Shown: piece after piece, positions 3,491 to 60,743 of the stretch | How positions within the stretch are numbered: the stretch's first letter is position 1 | Layout of the letters: each line of letters begins with the position of its first letter | Assembly (NCBI RefSeq): GCF_014695375.1 | Contig: NZ_JACJOG010000006.1 | Location: forward strand, 186,001 to 250,000 | DNA from: Coleofasciculus sp. FACHB-T130 | GTDB lineage: Bacteria > Cyanobacteriota > Cyanobacteriia > Cyanobacteriales > FACHB-T130 | Direction of reading: 5' to 3' | DNA length: 64,000 nucleotides | Notes under the pieces: generated by a model | Told to the model about the DNA's origin: nothing | What the model saw: only the letters and a program-made list of their open reading frames with translations | The model's database searches: none | Translations under genes and position numbers: made by a program

Positions 3491-5324
3491 CCCAGATTCC
3501 GCAGGTTGCTGGTAGAGTCAGAGGTATTTTTAAGCAATGACTCAACAGCCCACCAACATCCAAGTCAAAGATATCGATCATTTAGGCATCGTGGCAGGCA
3601 TCATCGACCAGATGAGTTGGGTCGATGAAATTAATCAATTAGTCGGCACACACTCACTTGAACAAGTGAGTACAGGACAACTCCTCAAAGCAATGATTCT
3701 TAATGGTCTAGGCTTCGTGGCTGCTCCGTTGTATCTGTTGGCTCAGTTCTTTGAAGGGAAAGCCACGGAGCATTTGATTGGAGAGGGAGTCAAGCCAGAA
3801 CACTTAAGTGATGACCGATTGGGACGAGCCTTGGACAAATTCTACCAAGTGGGAGCGACTCAAGTGTTCACGACTCTGGCAATGAAAGCGGTAGAACAGT
3901 TTGGGGTATCGGTGACAAGCATCCATCTAGACTCCAGCTCATTTCATGTAGATGGAGAGTATGTATCCGAGTGTAGCGAGAACTCTTCGAGCCAGGAGTC
4001 TGCCGCCACTAGTAATTCGGCAACCTCAAGCGAGTCAGCTAGTCCTCAAGAGCCGGAAGGGGACGAACCAAAACCGATCGCTATTACCCACGGTTACTCA
4101 AGAGACCACAGACCTGACCTCAAACAGTTCATCATCGATACGGTTTGCACGGCTGATGGAGATGTGCCGTTGTTCCTGCGCGTAGCTGACGGCAATGAAG
4201 ATGACAAAACCAGCTTCACTAAACTATTTGAGAAATTTCGAGAGCAATGGACATTTGAAGGTTTGTGTGTTGCTGACAGTGCCTTGTACACGGCTGACAA
4301 CTTGATAGCGATGAAACAGCTCAAGTGGCTAACACGAGTACCCCTGACCCTTGCTCAAGCCAAGGTAGTCTTGTTGGAGATTCAAGCCAATGAATGGCAG
4401 ACCAGCCGCCTCAAAGGTTATCGCCTTGCCGAGCGTCAAAGCTGCTATGGTGGGGTCCAACAGCGCTGGTTCATTGTGGAGAGTGAACAGCGTAAACAGG
4501 CTGACATCCAGCAATTGCATAAGCGCATCGACAAAGAATATAAGCAACAATCAGTTAAACTTCGGCAACTCTCAACTCAAGAGTTCGCTTGTGAACCTGA
4601 TGCTCGTGCGGCGGCAGTGAAGTTTGAGCAATTGTTGAAGTACCACCGTCTAGAAGACCTCAAATTCATCCCTCAAGCTTACTACGATAAAGCTGGTCGC
4701 CCCCGCCAAGATGAAGCACCCAGCCGTATCACTTATTCTGTTCAAGCCACTGTGGTTCCTAACCCAGAAGTGATTGAAGTGGAGATGCTCCGAGCCGGTC
4801 GCTTTATCCTCGCGACTAATGTTCTAGATGCTATCGAGCTGAGTCCAGACCAGGCGCTGAGTGAGTACAAAGACCAACAAAGCAATGAACGGGGGTTTCG
4901 TTTTCTCAAAGACCCGTTGTTCTTCACCTCCAGCATCTTTGTCAAGTCTCCCAGACGTGTGGAAGCTTTGGCGATGGTTATGGGACTGTGTCTACTAGTC
5001 TACGCTTTGGCTCAGCGCCAGTTACGTCAAGCTCTAGAGCAGACCGACGAAGCCATCAACAATCAAGCGGGTAAGTTAACTCAACGTCCTAGTTTGCGTT
5101 GGGTGTTTCTGAGTTTCCAGGCGGTGCATCTGCTGATTGTCGATGACCTCAAGCAGATTACCAATCTCACACCCGAACGACGGAAAATTCTCCGCTTTTT
5201 GGGAACCGATGCCAGTCGTTATTATCAACTCTGTTGACCTAACAGCTTGATTTGGCGTAGCTTGCCGTTGACTCCTCTTTCAAAAAATCTCTTTGACTCT
5301 ACCCAGAACCTGCGGAATGTAGGG
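3491..5324 (+). mobile_element. Complete IS1634-like insertion sequence
   Basis: The element is bounded by imperfect terminal inverted repeats. The left end (3491 onward) and the reverse complement of the right end (5324 backward) share ATTCCGCAGGTT (3496-3507 and 5307-5318), followed by a further match through GGTAGAGTCA. The element is flanked by a 5-bp direct repeat TAAAA (3486-3490 and 5325-5329). It holds one intact transposase gene. The repeat could be read as 7 bp (GGTAAAA) if the right end stops two bases earlier. Intact ends, duplication and gene argue for a fairly recent insertion. Confidence 0.9.
3537..5237 (+). CDS. IS1634-family (IS4 superfamily) DDE transposase
   Basis: A 566-residue transposase that would cut and paste the surrounding element. 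The N-terminus (about 7-115) matches the DUF4277-type region usual in this family. Catalytic Asp candidates lie in SIHLDSSSF and in VADSALYTADN. The third acidic residue lies in the segment YKDQQSNERGFRFLKDP, which fits the Y-R/K-E-K signature of IS4-type enzymes. A Ser-rich insertion (about 140-180) sits between the first Asp and HGYSRDHRPDLKQ, a common feature of cyanobacterial members. The ATG at 3537 lies just inside the left inverted repeat. There is no frameshift or internal stop, so the protein is probably functional. Confidence 0.93.
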   Translation: MTQQPTNIQVKDIDHLGIVAGIIDQMSWVDEINQLVGTHSLEQVSTGQLLKAMILNGLGFVAAPLYLLAQFFEGKATEHLIGEGVKPEHLSDDRLGRALDKFYQVGATQVFTTLAMKAVEQFGVSVTSIHLDSSSFHVDGEYVSECSENSSSQESAATSNSATSSESASPQEPEGDEPKPIAITHGYSRDHRPDLKQFIIDTVCTADGDVPLFLRVADGNEDDKTSFTKLFEKFREQWTFEGLCVADSALYTADNLIAMKQLKWLTRVPLTLAQAKVVLLEIQANEWQTSRLKGYRLAERQSCYGGVQQRWFIVESEQRKQADIQQLHKRIDKEYKQQSVKLRQLSTQEFACEPDARAAAVKFEQLLKYHRLEDLKFIPQAYYDKAGRPRQDEAPSRITYSVQATVVPNPEVIEVEMLRAGRFILATNVLDAIELSPDQALSEYKDQQSNERGFRFLKDPLFFTSSIFVKSPRRVEALAMVMGLCLLVYALAQRQLRQALEQTDEAINNQAGKLTQRPSLRWVFLSFQAVHLLIVDDLKQITNLTPERRKILRFLGTDASRYYQLC

Positions 5325-5553
5325 TAAAAGCACATGACTCATGACAAAGTAGACAAACTGAATTGTTTTTAGGATAAGTTTTCCTGCCGCTCTACCCATC
5401 AAACCCGTTTCCATCAAACCCGTTTGAGTATTCAGTTTGGGACTTCAAACAGCAGGCTCTTAATGTGCAGAAAAAATAGACACGAGGTCGGTTCCCAGCG
5501 TACAAAATGACAAGCTTTTATTCAATTCATATCTCCTGCTGAATGACGGCTCG

Positions 5554-6369
5554 CTAAGAAACCGCCAATAGGGAAACTTTATCCCGACTTTCTAAAAAAT
5601 TTTCAGCTTTCATAATTGCGTAGAGGTTGACATCAGCTTCTAAAAGACAAGCATGACCGCTCTTCGGCAGTATGACCATTTCCGCGTCGGGTAGGCAAGA
5701 AGCTAAGCGCTGAGCTTCACTTACAGAGGGCAGTAGTCGGTCTGTACCTCCGGCAATCACCAGGGTAGGTTGGGTGATGCGACGTAATTGAGAAGCATCA
5801 ACATCAAAATCTCTGATGAGGGACAGTCGCCAAAGGACAGTTTTTGGGGGTACGGAGTGGATAGCGTCTAGAAGGGCGCGGCGATCGCGCGGTGCAACCC
5901 GTTCTAAATGAGCTAAAAACGGCAATAACCACACCGATCCCACTCGGTAGAGGACTTCCGGTATCCAGCCGCTCACCAGCGATCCCCAAGCTAGCAGAGG
6001 TCGCTGATTAAAGGAAGAAGCGGGGTTGATCAAAATAATTCGGTCAAATAGTTCAGGCGATCGCAACGCTACTTTCATCGCCAAACAGCCCCCAAATGAC
6101 TCGCCGCACAGATAAACTGACCGATTAGGTTGTTTTTCTACTTCTGCTTCAATCAGCGCTACCACTTGATCGGTTAGATCGTCCCAGCTGGTCAAGTCAT
6201 CGGCTGGGATGACCAAACAACGGATATCAAAGGCTGCTTCTAACCCCTCGGTCTGCGCTCGCAACAATTGACCCGTGCCATCCATGCCTGGGAGGAACAC
6301 GAACAGCGGGCAGTCTGGATTAAACAGCCTGGGGGTGAGAAAACAAGGATGGCTTTTTACGTCTGGCAT
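5554..6369 (-). CDS. Alpha/beta hydrolase related to the N-terminal half of plant phytyl ester synthases
   Basis: An esterase/acyltransferase-type alpha/beta hydrolase of 271 residues from the ATG at 6369; an in-frame TTG at 6393 would add 8. PLFVFLPGMDGTG near the N-terminus is the oxyanion region. The nucleophile elbow is GESFGG, and the probable catalytic His is in KSGHACLL. The run LPGMDGTG ... RCLVIPADD ... GESFGGCLA ... INPASSF resembles plant plastid phytyl ester synthases (PES/ELT family), which join such a hydrolase to an acyltransferase domain. Here the next gene on the same strand, 228 bp upstream, is an acyltransferase. Inference: a role in acyl transfer to phytol, plastoquinol or diacylglycerol. 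Substrate is not determined by the sequence. Confidence 0.75.
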   Translation of the reverse strand: MPDVKSHPCFLTPRLFNPDCPLFVFLPGMDGTGQLLRAQTEGLEAAFDIRCLVIPADDLTSWDDLTDQVVALIEAEVEKQPNRSVYLCGESFGGCLAMKVALRSPELFDRIILINPASSFNQRPLLAWGSLVSGWIPEVLYRVGSVWLLPFLAHLERVAPRDRRALLDAIHSVPPKTVLWRLSLIRDFDVDASQLRRITQPTLVIAGGTDRLLPSVSEAQRLASCLPDAEMVILPKSGHACLLEADVNLYAIMKAENFLESRDKVSLLAVS

Positions 6370-6597
6370 TTCGTAATGTCCATTTAAAAACAACAGGTCA
6401 AAAATTTATTGCTTTCTTTGGGGCGGATGCGAACGATTCGAGGACTCAAGACACTTCGGTGAAAAACTAGGCAAGTCTAAATTCTTGAAGGCGACGGTTA
6501 CTGAGAGCGGACTTTGCCCATTTGCCTACCCTTAAGCCATCTACCTGTAGACGTAGGTATTAATTCTTATTCTATGGCAGACTCCCATCCTTGCGAA

Positions 6598-53367: not shown

Positions 53368-53766
53368 TTATTTCTTCGTAGCGATCGCTAATTTTGCACC
53401 TTTAACTTTACGCAACTGATCCATCACCGCCACGACTTGACCGTGATTAACTCCTTCATCAGCATTTAGCACGACGAGGGTTTCTTGCTCAGATGGAATA
53501 AGCGATCGCACTCCGGTTTCCAGTTCCTCTAAATCAATGGGCTGGCGGTTCAGTGCGATTTCTCCCTCTTCATCAATTGACACCGTTACGGGTGTCGATT
53601 TCTGAGCTTGTCCGGTCGCTGCTTTCGGCAAATTTACCGATAGTCCTTCTGAACGGGTCAAAAACAGCGTGGACATGATGAAAAAGGTCAAAATGGCGAA
53701 GATTACATCGATCATCGGCACGATGTTAATCTGCACTGGGATATCCGGCTCATCGGGTAGTCGCAT
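53368..53766 (-). CDS. exbD: ExbD/TolR-type proton-channel subunit
   Basis: Part of the ExbB-ExbD motor that uses the proton gradient to drive TonB. An in-frame ATG at 53787 begins MKKESLL, but its AAGGAG is the Shine-Dalgarno of the second ATG at 53766 (MRLPDEPDI), which is preferred (132 residues) and overlaps exbB by 17 bp. One N-terminal membrane helix (NIVPMIDVIFAILTFFIMS) holds the essential Asp of the family. The periplasmic region follows (VSIDEEGEIALN, VNHGQVVAVMDQLRKVKG). Convergent with the ABC ATPase. Confidence 0.93.
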   Translation of the reverse strand: MRLPDEPDIPVQINIVPMIDVIFAILTFFIMSTLFLTRSEGLSVNLPKAATGQAQKSTPVTVSIDEEGEIALNRQPIDLEELETGVRSLIPSEQETLVVLNADEGVNHGQVVAVMDQLRKVKGAKLAIATKK

Positions 53767-54400
53767 AAGAAGGCTCTCCTTTTTCATAACGGCGGCGGTA
53801 TAACAGTTCTAACTGACCGCCGTACTCTTGAATGTGCGCTGACTGCCTCTGATAGAACCCTCGAAAGGCATTGGAGAATACAAGGACAAAAATAGCAACA
53901 ATTAACCCGCTGGCGGTGGAAACTAACGCTTCGCTAATCCCTGCTGTAACGCCGACTGTCTGACTGCCTCCAACGCTCCCTAGAGTCAGCGAGGCAAAGG
54001 AGGTAATCAATCCCAAAACCGTTCCCAGCAACCCCAACAGAGGGGAAAGGGCGATAATCGTTTCAAACACCACATTGAATCGCTTCAATCCCGGTAACTC
54101 TGCTTGCGCTTCACTTTCCAACGCTAATCGAAATTCTTCTGGATTGGGTTGTTCCAGTTCCAATGCTGCCAAAAAGATTCGCGCAATCGGCAAGTCAACA
54201 TTCTGTTTTAGCCGATGCACAGCAGCTTCGGGATCGTGCTGATAAAGCTTCATCACATCTCGGACAACCCGACCTTGCCGTCGGTTAATGCGATACCAAA
54301 ATCTTGAACGCTCTATTACGAGAGCGATCGCTAATATAGAAAATGCTAGGAGTGGCCACATGACCACACCGCCCGCCACAAAAAGATTACTAATTCCCAT
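53750..54400 (-). CDS. exbB: ExbB/TolQ/MotA-family proton-channel subunit
   Basis: A 216-residue inner-membrane protein with three helices: VMWPLLAFSILAIALVIERS near the N-terminus, ALSPLLGLLGTVLGLITSF and SEALVSTASGLIVAIFVLVF. The GLLGTVxG and LVSTASGL motifs are diagnostic. The long cytoplasmic loop between helix 1 and 2 is typical. It is first in the exbB-exbD operon and diverges from tonB across 312 bp, so the three energising proteins share one regulatory region. Confidence 0.93.
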   Translation of the reverse strand: MGISNLFVAGGVVMWPLLAFSILAIALVIERSRFWYRINRRQGRVVRDVMKLYQHDPEAAVHRLKQNVDLPIARIFLAALELEQPNPEEFRLALESEAQAELPGLKRFNVVFETIIALSPLLGLLGTVLGLITSFASLTLGSVGGSQTVGVTAGISEALVSTASGLIVAIFVLVFSNAFRGFYQRQSAHIQEYGGQLELLYRRRYEKGEPSYATTR

Positions 54401-54712: not shown

Positions 54713-56830
54713 ATGGGCTTGTCAAGTGTTGCTGTTCAGCAGCGAGAAAAAGAAGAAGAGGCTCTAAGGTCTTTTATTGCCTGTAGCCTCATCGGTTCCC
54801 TAGCACTCCATATCGGAGTGCTGGCTACGAGCAATCGTTGGGTGAAAACATCTGACATCATTGCACAAGAGCCAATGGAAGTTGAGGTTGTCGATCCTGA
54901 GAGCCTTCAAGCCTTAGAACCGGAAGAAGAAACTTTAAAAGAAGAAACTCAACAAGAGAATACTCCATCAGTTGCTGCCGGAGATTCAGGTGTCTTAACT
55001 GGCTCTGGCAGTGCATCGGGAGAAGGCTCAGTTGCAGGTGGAGGCGGCGGTTCAGGTGGAGGCGGCGGTTCAGGTGGAGGCGGCGGCACACCGAATACGA
55101 CCTCTGCACCAGCATCTCAACCTGAAGTCGTAAAAACGCAGCCAGTGCAGCAGCCGCGCGTGGTCAATTTACCACCGTTCCGACCAGCTCAAACGCCCCA
55201 ACGAGTCGAGCAACGACTCGCTCCCGATCCAGTAACACCTGTCAAGCGTGAAGAACCCGTTGCCCAGAGGCCTAACCGCACTGAGGAACCAAATCTAACA
55301 AGTAGCTCGCAGCCGATTTCCCAGCCTAGATCGGTTGCCGTTGCGCCGTCTCGACAAAATGACCAGCCAGCAGCTCCAGCACAGGCAAGTTCCTCTCTCC
55401 AGCAACAAACATCTGAAAGATTTAGAGATTTGGTTAGAGGAATCAGTGGCTCCAGACAAACTCAAGAAAGTGCAGGAAATAGTGGCAGTCAAACTGATAA
55501 AAGCAGTGCTGTCGGCGGATCTACTGTTGCAAGCGGATTGGGAAGCCTGCTAGGCAGTGGTTCTGGGACGGGCAGTAGCACTCAAGGCTCAGGTACCGGC
55601 AATGGCTTGGGTACTGGCAATGGTTTGGGTAACGGCAGTGGCTCAGGTACCGGCAATGGCTCTGGTAGAGGCAATGGCTTGGGTACAGGTACAGGCAATG
55701 GTTCGGGCAATGGCTTGGGTACGGGTACAGGCAATGGTTCGGGCAATGGCTCAGGTACCGGCAATGGCTTGGGTACCGGCAATGGCTCAGGTACCGGCAA
55801 TGGCATCAGCAAAGAACCGGGAAGCGGAAGGGATGTAGCGATAGTTCCGGGAAATTTCAAACCGAGAACCGAGCCAAGAACTGAGCCAAGAGACAGGGAT
55901 GAAGAACGTCCTTCGAGGAGATCGGGATCGAGCCGAATCGGTTGCGTTAAATGTGACAAGCCCGACTATCCAAGCAATGCGAGACGGCAAGGCGTCGAAG
56001 GCGCATCCAAGGTCAGTGTTGATGTTGACGACAAAGGGAATGTCACCAATGTTCGGCTGTCGCGTTCCAGCGGTAACAGCGAACTTGATGAAGCTGCTGT
56101 GAGAGCGGCAAGAAATTGGAAGTTCAGTTCTTCTTCTGGTAGACGACAGGGGGTTGTGGCTTCTGTTGATTTTCAGCTAGAGGGATCGGAGCGATCGCGT
56201 CGTTCTCGCGAACGTCGTCGCACAGAATCGGCATCTTCCAGCCGTAGCTCGGAGTCATCGACTCCCCGGCGGCGGCGGCGTTTGGAAACAGCATCTTCTT
56301 CCACGAGTGCTTCGGAAACACGCCGGATTAGTCGGCGGCGGCGTTTGGAAACGGCTTCTTCTTCCACGAGTGCCTCGGAAACGCCGCGTCGTTCTCGGCG
56401 GAGGCGTCTGGAAACAGCATCTTCTTCCACAAGTGCCTCGGAAACACGCCGGATTAGTCGGCGACGGCGTCTGGAAACGGCTTCTTCTTCCACAAGTGCG
56501 TCGGAAACACGCCGGATTAGTCGGCGGAGGCGTCTGGAAACAGCATCTTCTTCCAGGAGTGCCTCAGAAACGCCGCGTCGTTCTCGGCGGCGGGTCGAAT
56601 CTGCGGCTGCCAGTCCGTCCCAGCAAGCCCCACGGGCACGGCGGCGGCGGGTGGAATCTGCCTCTAGTTCGACCTCTAGACCGTCACGGCAAGCCCCACG
56701 GGCGCGGCGGCAGCGGCGTCTGGAAGCCGGTTCAGCAAGTCAGGCACAACAAGCTCCACGGGCGCGGCGGCGGAGAGCTGCACCTTCCTCGGCAGAATCA
56801 TCGGGTTCAGCTACTACGAACAATGAATAA
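54713..56830 (+). CDS. tonB: TonB-family energy transducer with an unusual Arg/Ser-rich C-terminal tail
   Basis: A 705-residue protein anchored by one N-terminal helix (SLIGSLALHIGVLATS). A Glu-rich part, a natural Gly5-Ser linker, a Pro/Gln-rich stretch and a Gly-Asn-Ser/Thr tract (about 285-365) span the periplasm. The TonB C-terminal domain is at about 408-490: CVKCDKPDYPSNARRQGVEG holds the YP motif, then VRLSRSSGNSELDEAAVRAA. Usually TonB ends there, but here 215 more residues follow, dominated by RRRRLETASSS-type repeats and PRARRRR motifs. The tail is strongly basic with Ser-rich spacers. It sits between exbBD and a siderophore receptor, so the role in iron uptake is secure; the tail's role is not known. 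Confidence 0.88.
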   Translation: MGLSSVAVQQREKEEEALRSFIACSLIGSLALHIGVLATSNRWVKTSDIIAQEPMEVEVVDPESLQALEPEEETLKEETQQENTPSVAAGDSGVLTGSGSASGEGSVAGGGGGSGGGGGSGGGGGTPNTTSAPASQPEVVKTQPVQQPRVVNLPPFRPAQTPQRVEQRLAPDPVTPVKREEPVAQRPNRTEEPNLTSSSQPISQPRSVAVAPSRQNDQPAAPAQASSSLQQQTSERFRDLVRGISGSRQTQESAGNSGSQTDKSSAVGGSTVASGLGSLLGSGSGTGSSTQGSGTGNGLGTGNGLGNGSGSGTGNGSGRGNGLGTGTGNGSGNGLGTGTGNGSGNGSGTGNGLGTGNGSGTGNGISKEPGSGRDVAIVPGNFKPRTEPRTEPRDRDEERPSRRSGSSRIGCVKCDKPDYPSNARRQGVEGASKVSVDVDDKGNVTNVRLSRSSGNSELDEAAVRAARNWKFSSSSGRRQGVVASVDFQLEGSERSRRSRERRRTESASSSRSSESSTPRRRRRLETASSSTSASETRRISRRRRLETASSSTSASETPRRSRRRRLETASSSTSASETRRISRRRRLETASSSTSASETRRISRRRRLETASSSRSASETPRRSRRRVESAAASPSQQAPRARRRRVESASSSTSRPSRQAPRARRQRRLEAGSASQAQQAPRARRRRAAPSSAESSGSATTNNE
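55560..55812 (+). repeat. Gly-Asn-Ser/Thr repeat tract inside tonB
   Basis: Short units GGTACCGGCAATGG and relatives encode GTGNG, GLGTG and GNGSG runs. A low-complexity spacer, prone to length change by slippage or recombination. Confidence 0.85.
56270..56584 (+). repeat. Five 63-bp tandem repeats in the tonB tail
   Basis: Copies at 56270-56332, 56333-56395, 56396-56458, 56459-56521 and 56522-56584 each encode a 21-residue unit starting RRRRLETASSS. The ends alternate between two forms, ETRRIS (copies 1, 3 and 4) and ETPRRS (copies 2 and 5), suggesting growth by unequal exchange. Confidence 0.92.
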
Positions 56831-58142: not shown

Positions 58143-58199
58143 AAAATCAGGCTTGTTAACCAAGACCTGGGTGCATAAATTTAGGTGTGTGGAGACGGC

Positions 58200-60743
58200 A
58201 TGAAACTACAGCAATTACTTCCTGGCTTGTTAATCGCAGGCTCAGTTGTCATGACGGTAGCTCAGCCAGTAAGGGCTGAGGTCGTACAAGTAACCGGCGT
58301 GCAACTCAACTCAACGCCCGACGGCTTGCAGGTGATTTTGCAGACGACGAATGGAGCAGCGCCCCAAGTGGTCACATCTAGCTATGACCAAACCCTGCTC
58401 ATCGACCTGCTCAACGCCCAGCTAAGCCTTCCAGAAGGGGATACGTTTACTCAAGACAACCCAGCTTTCGGCATAACTTCTGTAACCGTAAACCGCTTGT
58501 ATGGCAACAGTGTCCGGGTAACGATCAAAGGCGTCGCAGAACTGCCAATCGCAGAGGTCGTGCCGAGTCCGCAGGGAGTGGTACTCAGCTTAACAACCGC
58601 CTCCGAAACCGCTGAGGCTCCCCCTAGCCAAGAAACACCAGAGACGACTGATTCTGAGCCTTCTGAGTCGCCCCAGACGCCCTCCGAGGGTGAGCCTTCT
58701 GACGAAACCCAACCAGACACTGACGCTCCAGTTGAAGAGCCAGAAGAAATTGAACTGGTAGTGACAGGTCAGCAAGAAGGCGGATATAGAGTTATCGAGG
58801 CCACAACCGCCACGCGCACCGATACACCATTGCGCGACGTTCCTCAGGCCATTCAGGTTGTTCCTCAGCAGGTGATTGAGGATCAACAAGTAGTACGGAT
58901 CACAGAAGCTGCACGCAACGTCAGCGGCGTTGTGCGAAGCGAGGGCTATGGAGGTGCTACTGATAACTACACCATCCGGGGATTTGCCATCTCCAGTAAC
59001 CTGAGAAATGGTTTCAGCGATGGCGGTTTTTACTCATTAACGGATGTCGCCAGTATCGAACGAGTCGAAGTTCTCAAAGGGCCAGCTTCGGTACTTTATG
59101 GTCAGATTGAACCGGGTGGTGTCGTGAATTACATCACCAAGCAACCGCTGAGCGAACCTTATTATGCCGCTTCATTTACGGCTGGAAGTTACGACTTCTA
59201 TCGCCCATCAATAGATATTTCTGGCCCCCTCGATCCTGACAAAACTGTATTGTATCGATTGAATGTTGCCTATGAAAATTCGGGTAGTTTTAGAGATTTT
59301 GTAGACAGCGAGCTTTTCGTGGTTGCACCTGTCTTGAGCTTCAAGATTACCGATAAAACTACCTTAACCCTGGAGTATGAATACCTGGATCTCGATCGAA
59401 CTTTCGACCGAGCCTTTCCACCGCTAACAGCGATGTTTGATCTTCCCATTAGTCGTTATCTAGGAGAACCCAACGACAGTTACAACCATAGAAGCCATAA
59501 AGCTAGTTATGTTCTGGATCATCGTTTTAGCGAAAATTGGCGGCTCCGGAATGCCTTTTCAGCTCAAATCGTTGATACAGAGCGTAAAAATGTCCAAGCA
59601 CGTACCTTCCAATTAGAGGGAGATGGACGCACCCTACGGCGAAGATATAATGACTCTGACGAAAATAGAGAAGATTATTCTCTGCAAACAGACTTGGTAG
59701 GCAAATTTAATACTGGCTCGATTAATCATCAACTTCTCATTGGGCTTGAGTTAAGTAAAATTAGAAATGGTTACACATTACGCAGAGCAAATTTCCCTTC
59801 AATTGATATTTACAATCCAGTTTACGGGTTTCCTCGTCCAACCAGTTTTGGTGACGCCTTTGGCAGAGAAGAAAACACTAATACGTTAGGTATCTATGTA
59901 CAAGACCAGATGACATTGTTGCCAAACCTGAAATTACTGATTGGCGGTCGATTTGATTCTGTCGATCTTGACATCGAAGATGTTGCAGACGCTTTGAATG
60001 GAAGCGAAGCTGAAAAATCCAGCCGTTACTTTGAAGCCTTTTCACCCCGCGTTGGAATTGTTTATCAGCCGATAGAACCAATTTCACTCTATGCCAGTTA
60101 CAGCCGCTCTTTTAGACCAAATATCTTTGCTTTTACGTCGAACGGACAGCTAATAGAGCCAGAAAAAGGTACCCAATACGAGGCAGGAATTAAAGGTGAA
60201 TTCTTAGATGGCAGATTATCTACGACGCTGGCAGCTTACCAGATAACCAAGACAAACGTTGCCACGACAGATCCCAATGATACTGATTTCTCAATTGCAG
60301 CGGGAGAAGTGAAGAGCCGAGGCATCGAATTGGATGTGAGGGGAGAAATTGCACCCGGTTGGAATGTTATTGCATCTTATGCCCATATGGATGCTTTTGT
60401 TAGCAAAGATGAGACCATTCCTGAAGGGGACGAATTGGTTAATGCGCCAAATAATACCGCTAGCTTGTGGATGACTTATGAATTTCAAAGAGGTGCTTTG
60501 CAAGGGTTAGGTTTTGGAGCTGGACTATATTTCGTGGGTGCGCGGGAAGCGGAGCTTCCAAATACCATCGAAATCCCTTCGTATTTGAGAACTGATGCCG
60601 CTATCTTCTATCGGCGGAACAATTACCGCGCTGCTCTGAATATCAAGAATCTCTTTGATATCAAATATTACGATTCTCAAGGCTTCTTAGTTTACCCCGG
60701 AGCGCCTTTAACTTTGTTGGGGACATTTGGGGTGGAATTTTGA
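58200..60743 (+). CDS. TonB-dependent siderophore receptor with N-terminal AMIN domain
   Basis: A frame extension to GTG 58185 exists, but ATG 58200, with GGAG five bases upstream and a clean signal peptide (MKLQQLLPGLLIAGSVVM...), is the start (847 residues). Residues about 27-125 form an AMIN domain, usually a peptidoglycan- or envelope-localising module. An acidic Pro/Glu linker follows. The TonB-box candidate is IELVVTG (about 183-189). The plug covers about 200-320 (DVPQAIQVVPQQVIED, YTIRGF, VEVLKGPASVLYGQIEPGGV) and the 22-stranded barrel runs to the C-terminal Phe. It imports a ferric siderophore across the outer membrane. It follows the exbBD-tonB genes. Confidence 0.95.
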   Translation: MKLQQLLPGLLIAGSVVMTVAQPVRAEVVQVTGVQLNSTPDGLQVILQTTNGAAPQVVTSSYDQTLLIDLLNAQLSLPEGDTFTQDNPAFGITSVTVNRLYGNSVRVTIKGVAELPIAEVVPSPQGVVLSLTTASETAEAPPSQETPETTDSEPSESPQTPSEGEPSDETQPDTDAPVEEPEEIELVVTGQQEGGYRVIEATTATRTDTPLRDVPQAIQVVPQQVIEDQQVVRITEAARNVSGVVRSEGYGGATDNYTIRGFAISSNLRNGFSDGGFYSLTDVASIERVEVLKGPASVLYGQIEPGGVVNYITKQPLSEPYYAASFTAGSYDFYRPSIDISGPLDPDKTVLYRLNVAYENSGSFRDFVDSELFVVAPVLSFKITDKTTLTLEYEYLDLDRTFDRAFPPLTAMFDLPISRYLGEPNDSYNHRSHKASYVLDHRFSENWRLRNAFSAQIVDTERKNVQARTFQLEGDGRTLRRRYNDSDENREDYSLQTDLVGKFNTGSINHQLLIGLELSKIRNGYTLRRANFPSIDIYNPVYGFPRPTSFGDAFGREENTNTLGIYVQDQMTLLPNLKLLIGGRFDSVDLDIEDVADALNGSEAEKSSRYFEAFSPRVGIVYQPIEPISLYASYSRSFRPNIFAFTSNGQLIEPEKGTQYEAGIKGEFLDGRLSTTLAAYQITKTNVATTDPNDTDFSIAAGEVKSRGIELDVRGEIAPGWNVIASYAHMDAFVSKDETIPEGDELVNAPNNTASLWMTYEFQRGALQGLGFGAGLYFVGAREAELPNTIEIPSYLRTDAAIFYRRNNYRAALNIKNLFDIKYYDSQGFLVYPGAPLTLLGTFGVEF

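Follow-up and report, generated by a model that had tools for sequence, protein, structure and literature searches.

The DNA analysed here, referred to throughout as the window, is a stretch of 64,000 nucleotides from the cyanobacterium Coleofasciculus sp. FACHB-T130 (contig NZ_JACJOG010000006.1, positions 186,001 to 250,000, counted from 1 below). Its forward strand carries a tonB open reading frame (ORF; 54713–56830) that encodes a protein of 705 amino acids and contains no internal stops. The TonB C-terminal domain of this protein does not lie at the extreme C-terminus, a position that is usual although Pfam does not require it; 215 residues come after it, and they form a strongly basic tail built partly of tandem repeats. 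An extension behind the domain is typical of the class to which the window belongs (Cyanobacteriia), and the special part is the basic, repeat-amplified composition found here.

Pfam TonB_C matches residues 416–475 of the protein (E = 1.1e-17; 64.6 bits against a cut-off of 24.6), with TonB_2 matching weakly, and the domain fold as delimited by Pfam, AlphaFold2 and profile and fold comparison spans residues 411–487 (55943–56173). A profile of 25 cyanobacterial TonB domains searched against the PDB gave 8rd6 (E = 6e-14) and 1u07 (E = 8e-14) as best matches, and the predicted TonB-domain fold aligned with 1u07 at a TM-score of 0.82 (on target). The protein is very probably a genuine energy-transducing TonB, as had been proposed in a preliminary description of the window made from its letters alone. 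Because this ORF is the only TonB_C match in a source genome with two matches to the receptor Plug domain, the tail can be expected not to interfere with TonB function. The fold opens with a Cys pair, a feature of cyanobacterial TonB domains in general (CxxC or CxxxC; 55943–55954 in the window); the first Cys never varies among 25 aligned sequences, and a second alignment has one Cys invariant and one nearly so. Ahead of the domain lie a hydrophobic anchor assigned by eye (residues about 20–40; 54770–54832), the S29-xxx-H33 of which we take to correspond to the SxxxH of the TonB anchor, and a long low-complexity linker (54863–55924) recognized by tandem-repeat search and translation, with Pro/Gln, GGGGGS and GTGNGS/GTGNGL repeats. 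The linker repeats (GGGGGS)n and GTGNGL/GTGNGS lie at 55035–55086 and 55586–55809; in the TonB linker of another genome of the genus, G001, (GGGGGS)n is absent and the GTGNGL/GTGNGS repeat is shorter and altered.

The tail itself (residues 491–705) holds 60 Arg, 57 Ser and 19 Glu and neither Lys nor Asp, in agreement with the basic, Ser-rich tail of 215 residues described earlier. Counted as 217 residues, it has a net charge of +40; its start is GS. AlphaFold2 modelled the domain with confidence, followed directly by a helix (residues 493–514; 56189–56254) preceded by a GS that is conserved in alignments, and then by low confidence onward to the end of the protein. Five tandem units of 21 residues, RRRRLETASSSTSASETRRIS or ...ETPRRS, begin at residues 520, 541, 562, 583 and 604 and occupy residues 520–624 (56270–56584), so that the number of units first reported holds. 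They were delimited by unit comparison, by Tandem Repeats Finder (63-bp period, 4.8 copies, 84% matches, 56270–56571) and by the self-identity of the tail, which at a lag of 21 residues is 0.54 against a maximum of 0.298 over lags 5–59 in 1,000 shuffles. The distal basic tail (residues 625–705; 56585–56827) has RRRVESA and APRARR motifs, three of the latter being discerned by eye behind the units, and its low confidence in the model suggests disorder.

Genome G001 encodes an intact TonB homologue of 671 residues, with the same kind of tail and fewer units, and for this reason the frameshift or assembly error in the repeat tract that the preliminary description had considered is unlikely. Between the two genomes the non-synonymous (dN) and synonymous (dS) divergence of the tail is 0.139 and 0.468, respectively, giving a dN/dS of 0.30; the ratio is 0.21 for the TonB domain, 0.32 for the linker and 0.26 for residues 626–705 alone. 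Nucleotide differences fall at third codon positions in 60 of 110 cases in the tail and in 16 of 24 in the domain, and comparison of the five units within the window gave proportions of synonymous (pS) and non-synonymous (pN) differences of 0.325 and 0.078. The dN/dS against G001 and the pS and pN among the units indicate constraint on the protein sequence of the tail, weaker than that on the TonB domain and close to that on the linker. Selection on the protein was therefore rightly suspected, although the intact frame that had been offered as its proof is a weak argument, because a second frame on the plus strand is likewise stop-free across 56180–56830. Could the tail nevertheless be a sequencing error, or be cut from the mature protein? 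Arg-rich runs may generally be protease-sensitive, but the intact homogeneric counterpart, the codon-level constraint and the occurrence of long basic tails in many genomes make either account very improbable.

Tails behind the TonB domain proved to be common among the relatives of the source organism. A query of domain plus tail matched 51 of 100 relatives' genomes, and 72 of 91 distinct TonB_C ORFs of the window's class bear a tail of at least 45 residues (median 132), with 19 lacking a long tail; the loci surveyed were best-scoring matches and our own picks rather than a random sample, paralogues were counted singly, and one ORF left incomplete by the end of its locus was excluded from the 91. 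Among named cyanobacterial loci, 34 of 40 TonB ORFs are long-tailed. Other classes of the same phylum yielded a post-domain tail of at least 45 residues in 1 of 21 cases (median 9), and control loci from other phyla in none of 59. These controls were the best 30 of 127 matches, from eight genomes of Verrucomicrobia, Bacteroidales, Terriglobia/Acidobacteria and Lysobacterales (0/30 with a long tail), and 29 new best-scoring loci from 40 genomes sampled within the phylum to which the Lysobacterales genome G355 belongs (0/29). Three of the control loci lie near contig ends, where the tails measure 0 (L240), 7 (L251) and 3 residues (L254, whose frame has a stop codon inside the TonB match). Because 72 of the 91 same-class ORFs carry one, we regard the extension as typical of the group. 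The premise that TonB normally stops where the domain ends thus stands for the other phyla and falls for the window's own class, and the question of whether other cyanobacterial TonBs carry such a tail is answered in the affirmative, the basic type being a subset.

The extensions share a beginning and differ in what follows. Of the 113 long cyanobacterial tails, counted with duplicate loci, 97 open with GS and have an Arg close behind; past this point the tails vary by lineage and are neutral and rich in Glu/Gln/Arg, acidic or Pro-rich, or basic, with net charges spanning −55 to +60. Four TonB tails (loci L064, L074, L076 and L117) have net charges of −32 to −55, opposite in sign to that of the window's tail. 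The AlphaFold2 model of a Nostoc homologue shows the same arrangement as that of the window protein, with an additional distal helix at an LRxSLRR-type motif. Given that GS is the most widely shared feature, found with basic, neutral and acidic tails alike, and that a helix is predicted in both models, each of a basic-tail protein, one might propose that the helix behind the domain is the functional part, docking on the TonB domain, a second TonB or ExbD, with the remaining tail secondary. We consider this improbable, as the models are of monomers and offer no evidence of contacts, and as the conserved distal motifs of the relatives would be left unexplained.

We defined a basic-tail group by a tail of at least 45 residues, a net charge of at least +10 and a GS start, a definition that the window's tail fits. 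Unique basic tails number 57 (net +12 to +60). Tails of this type are present in the window's genus, Gloeocapsopsis, Chroococcus, Chlorogloea, Hydrococcus and many Nostocales. They cluster on a tree of 129 TonB domains (10 changes against 41.0 with shuffled labels), a tree of only 79 columns in which many forks are open and near-copies favour clustering, and which omits rows below 55 bits or 60 residues, duplicates and a fusion protein of G001 described below. Within the window's own family (f1), genomes G002, G004 and G005 have neutral tails, and the domain-plus-tail query found no match in G003.

Many of the basic tails have a motif in common. Among the basic tails, 16 of the 28 used for discovery and 20 of the 26 used for validation contain the form LR.[STA]LR[RNQ], against at most 1 in shuffles, and none of 42 non-basic tails does; this form was loosened afterwards from the motif written down beforehand. 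That stricter LRxSLRR-type motif, fixed before the validation tails were seen, occurs in 7 of the 26, and shuffles again gave no more than 1. From the 34 validation tails, those almost the same as a discovery tail had been removed; 31 were left, 26 of them long and basic. Two residues of the LRxSLRR-type motif, L217 and R218, are invariant across 24 aligned basic-tail sequences. These observations bear on the simplest account of the extension, namely that it needs only solubility and disorder, its composition drifting by lineage while slippage grows the repeats under mild selection against hydrophobic or broken versions. Such a spacer would suit the range of net charge across cyanobacteria, the resemblance of the tail's dN/dS to that of the low-complexity linker and the difference in repeat number between the source genome and G001. 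It is less easily reconciled with the clustering of basic tails on the tree, with a motif nearly absent from shuffles and with conserved islands deep in the relatives' basic tails, of which the window's tail shares the Arg-rich blocks only, and on balance we think it rather unlikely.

The reading that we prefer, tentatively and as something short of probable, is that of a polyvalent electrostatic tether, by which the tail would bind an anionic partner close to the outer membrane. The extension comprises a short predicted helix right behind the last TonB strand and a probably disordered tail, which in the window's lineage is a string of Arg-rich blocks with Ser/Thr/Ala spacers. Presumably located in the periplasm, the tail would make many weak contacts with an anionic surface in the outer half of that compartment, the likeliest partner being the pyruvylated polysaccharide that is linked to peptidoglycan and anchors the outer membrane of cyanobacteria. 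In Synechocystis the outer membrane is held by pyruvylated polysaccharides of this peptidoglycan-linked kind, and when pyruvylation is suppressed, outer-membrane proteins with SLH domains are held less firmly and the outer membrane detaches (PMC9163127, in the part available to us, as for the other articles cited here by PMC number). These results would place a pyruvylated, and hence presumably anionic, wall polymer in the right position. Tethering would keep the receptor-binding domain parked by the receptors across the thick wall while ExbB–ExbD pull as usual, and the number of binding blocks would be adjusted as the 63-bp repeat expands.

An affinity of the tail for anionic polymers had been put forward in the preliminary description, and for the window's tail it is plausible. 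As a general function of the extension it is untenable, because other lineages of cyanobacteria have neutral or strongly acidic tails. Nucleic acid, one of the polymers suggested, was set aside as an unlikely partner, since the periplasm is where the tail is expected. Several points weigh against the tether itself. Anion binding cannot be what the neutral and acidic cyanobacterial tails share with the basic ones, and a dN/dS so close to that of the linker would also be compatible with a loosely constrained spacer. The window's tail lacks the LR.[STA]LR[RNQ] motif, which many, not all, basic tails carry. Its own repeat motif, RRRR[LV]E[TA]A[SP], was rejected as a general motif of basic tails, since the strict form occurs in 0 of 26 validation tails; a loosened form is present in 5 of the 28 discovery tails and in 2 of the 26 for validation, so that the RRRRLETAS block of the window recurs, in this looser form, in a few relatives, and because the strict form failed validation we treat the loosened one as a lead only.

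The neighbourhood of tonB suits an energy-transducing system. Divergently adjoining it on the minus strand are exbB (53750–54400; Pfam MotA_ExbB, 3.1e-32) and exbD (53368–53787; Pfam ExbD, 1.8e-31), and downstream are genes for a TPR protein and, on the plus strand, a TonB-dependent receptor (58185–60743). ExbB and ExbD lie within 3 kb of tonB in 27 of the 34 named loci with long basic tails and in none of the other six named loci. At locus L032 of G001 a TPR paralogue of 402 residues (4462–5670) forms an in-frame fusion with two partial TonB domains, both of which bear a short Arg/Ser tail, and a plain TPR gene follows at 5777–6484; the window region has the plain TPR gene only. Elsewhere in the window, 153-bp tandem repeats in about three copies occupy 764–1288.

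By Pfam, the receptor consists of an AMIN domain, an acidic linker, the Plug and the barrel, and it is one of the two Plug matches of the source genome. The N-terminal AMIN has counterparts elsewhere, an AMIN-like match being present in 46 of 62 receptor ORFs examined. The linker between AMIN and Plug (58593–58829, plus strand) has a net charge of −19 and holds a probable TonB box, EEIELVVTG, assigned by eye. In both receptors of the source genome the 60 residues ahead of the Plug have a net charge of −15, which raises the possibility that the basic tail binds this acidic stretch before the TonB box and so increases the local concentration of the TonB domain. Across genomes, the pre-Plug stretch averages −11.0 in those with basic tails (n = 11) and −6.9 in the others (n = 18; Mann–Whitney P = 0.010), as scored over the 62 of 109 Plug matches whose receptors were among the loci collected. 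The genome-level correlation, however, is weak (Spearman −0.34, P = 0.069), and with genomes gathered into 16 family-level groups neither test is significant (Spearman −0.21, P = 0.43; Mann–Whitney P = 0.11, 3 against 13). Moreover, genomes G018, G119, G236 and G275, whose tails have a net charge of −13 or below, have stretches averaging −9.5 or below. Because significance is lost in the family-level groups, we demoted the pairing of tail and receptor linker to a rival explanation, and an unlikely one.

The model of TonB owes most to proteobacteria, in which the protein stops at the receptor-binding domain. Should most TonBs of cyanobacteria continue past it with a tail whose start is conserved, a part would have to be added to the model for a major group of primary producers. 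The basic tail also offers a testable idea of the way in which TonB locates receptors in the outer membrane across a thick wall loaded with polysaccharide. More tentatively than for the tether alone, we propose that cyanobacterial TonB may be built otherwise than the proteobacterial model, with an internal receptor-binding domain and an extension that acts as another working end. Where the lineage is basic, this end would serve as a multivalent electrostatic clutch at an anionic polymer of the wall or at the acidic linkers of receptors, and TonB would hence be a wall-tethered rather than a freely searching transducer.

Among known systems, Escherichia coli TonB (PDB 1u07, 1xx3, 2gsk and 2grx) shares its domain with the window protein by profile and fold. 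In E. coli 1u07 the profile match stops 3 residues short of the chain end (87 of 90), whereas the window protein runs on for 215 residues, beginning with the predicted helix. Cyanobacterial TonBs have been listed before (PMC2771747). SjdR (formerly TonB1) of Anabaena is a TonB-like protein with a periplasmic part (PMC8262864), in contrast to which the window protein has a whole TonB domain. Our search of the literature by title and beginning of abstract, in which few subscription journals were covered, found no account of the composition or function of cyanobacterial TonB tails. The closest parallel is Anabaena sp. PCC 7120, whose TonB2, TonB3 and TonB4 are drawn with a cytosolic region, an anchor, a linker, a TonB-box-binding region and a 'C-terminal extension' (PMC8597729, Fig. 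1 legend) and so resemble the window TonB in having an extension behind the region that binds the TonB box. The term occurs twice in the available part of that article, both times in this legend, and no composition, repeats, motifs or role of the extension are given there. TonB3 is the TonB for ferric schizokinen transport (PMC8597729). The basic-tail TonBs of Nostocales found here may be its orthologues. The tail of the window protein is a lineage-specific form of an extension that is common in cyanobacterial TonBs and had been drawn in earlier work.
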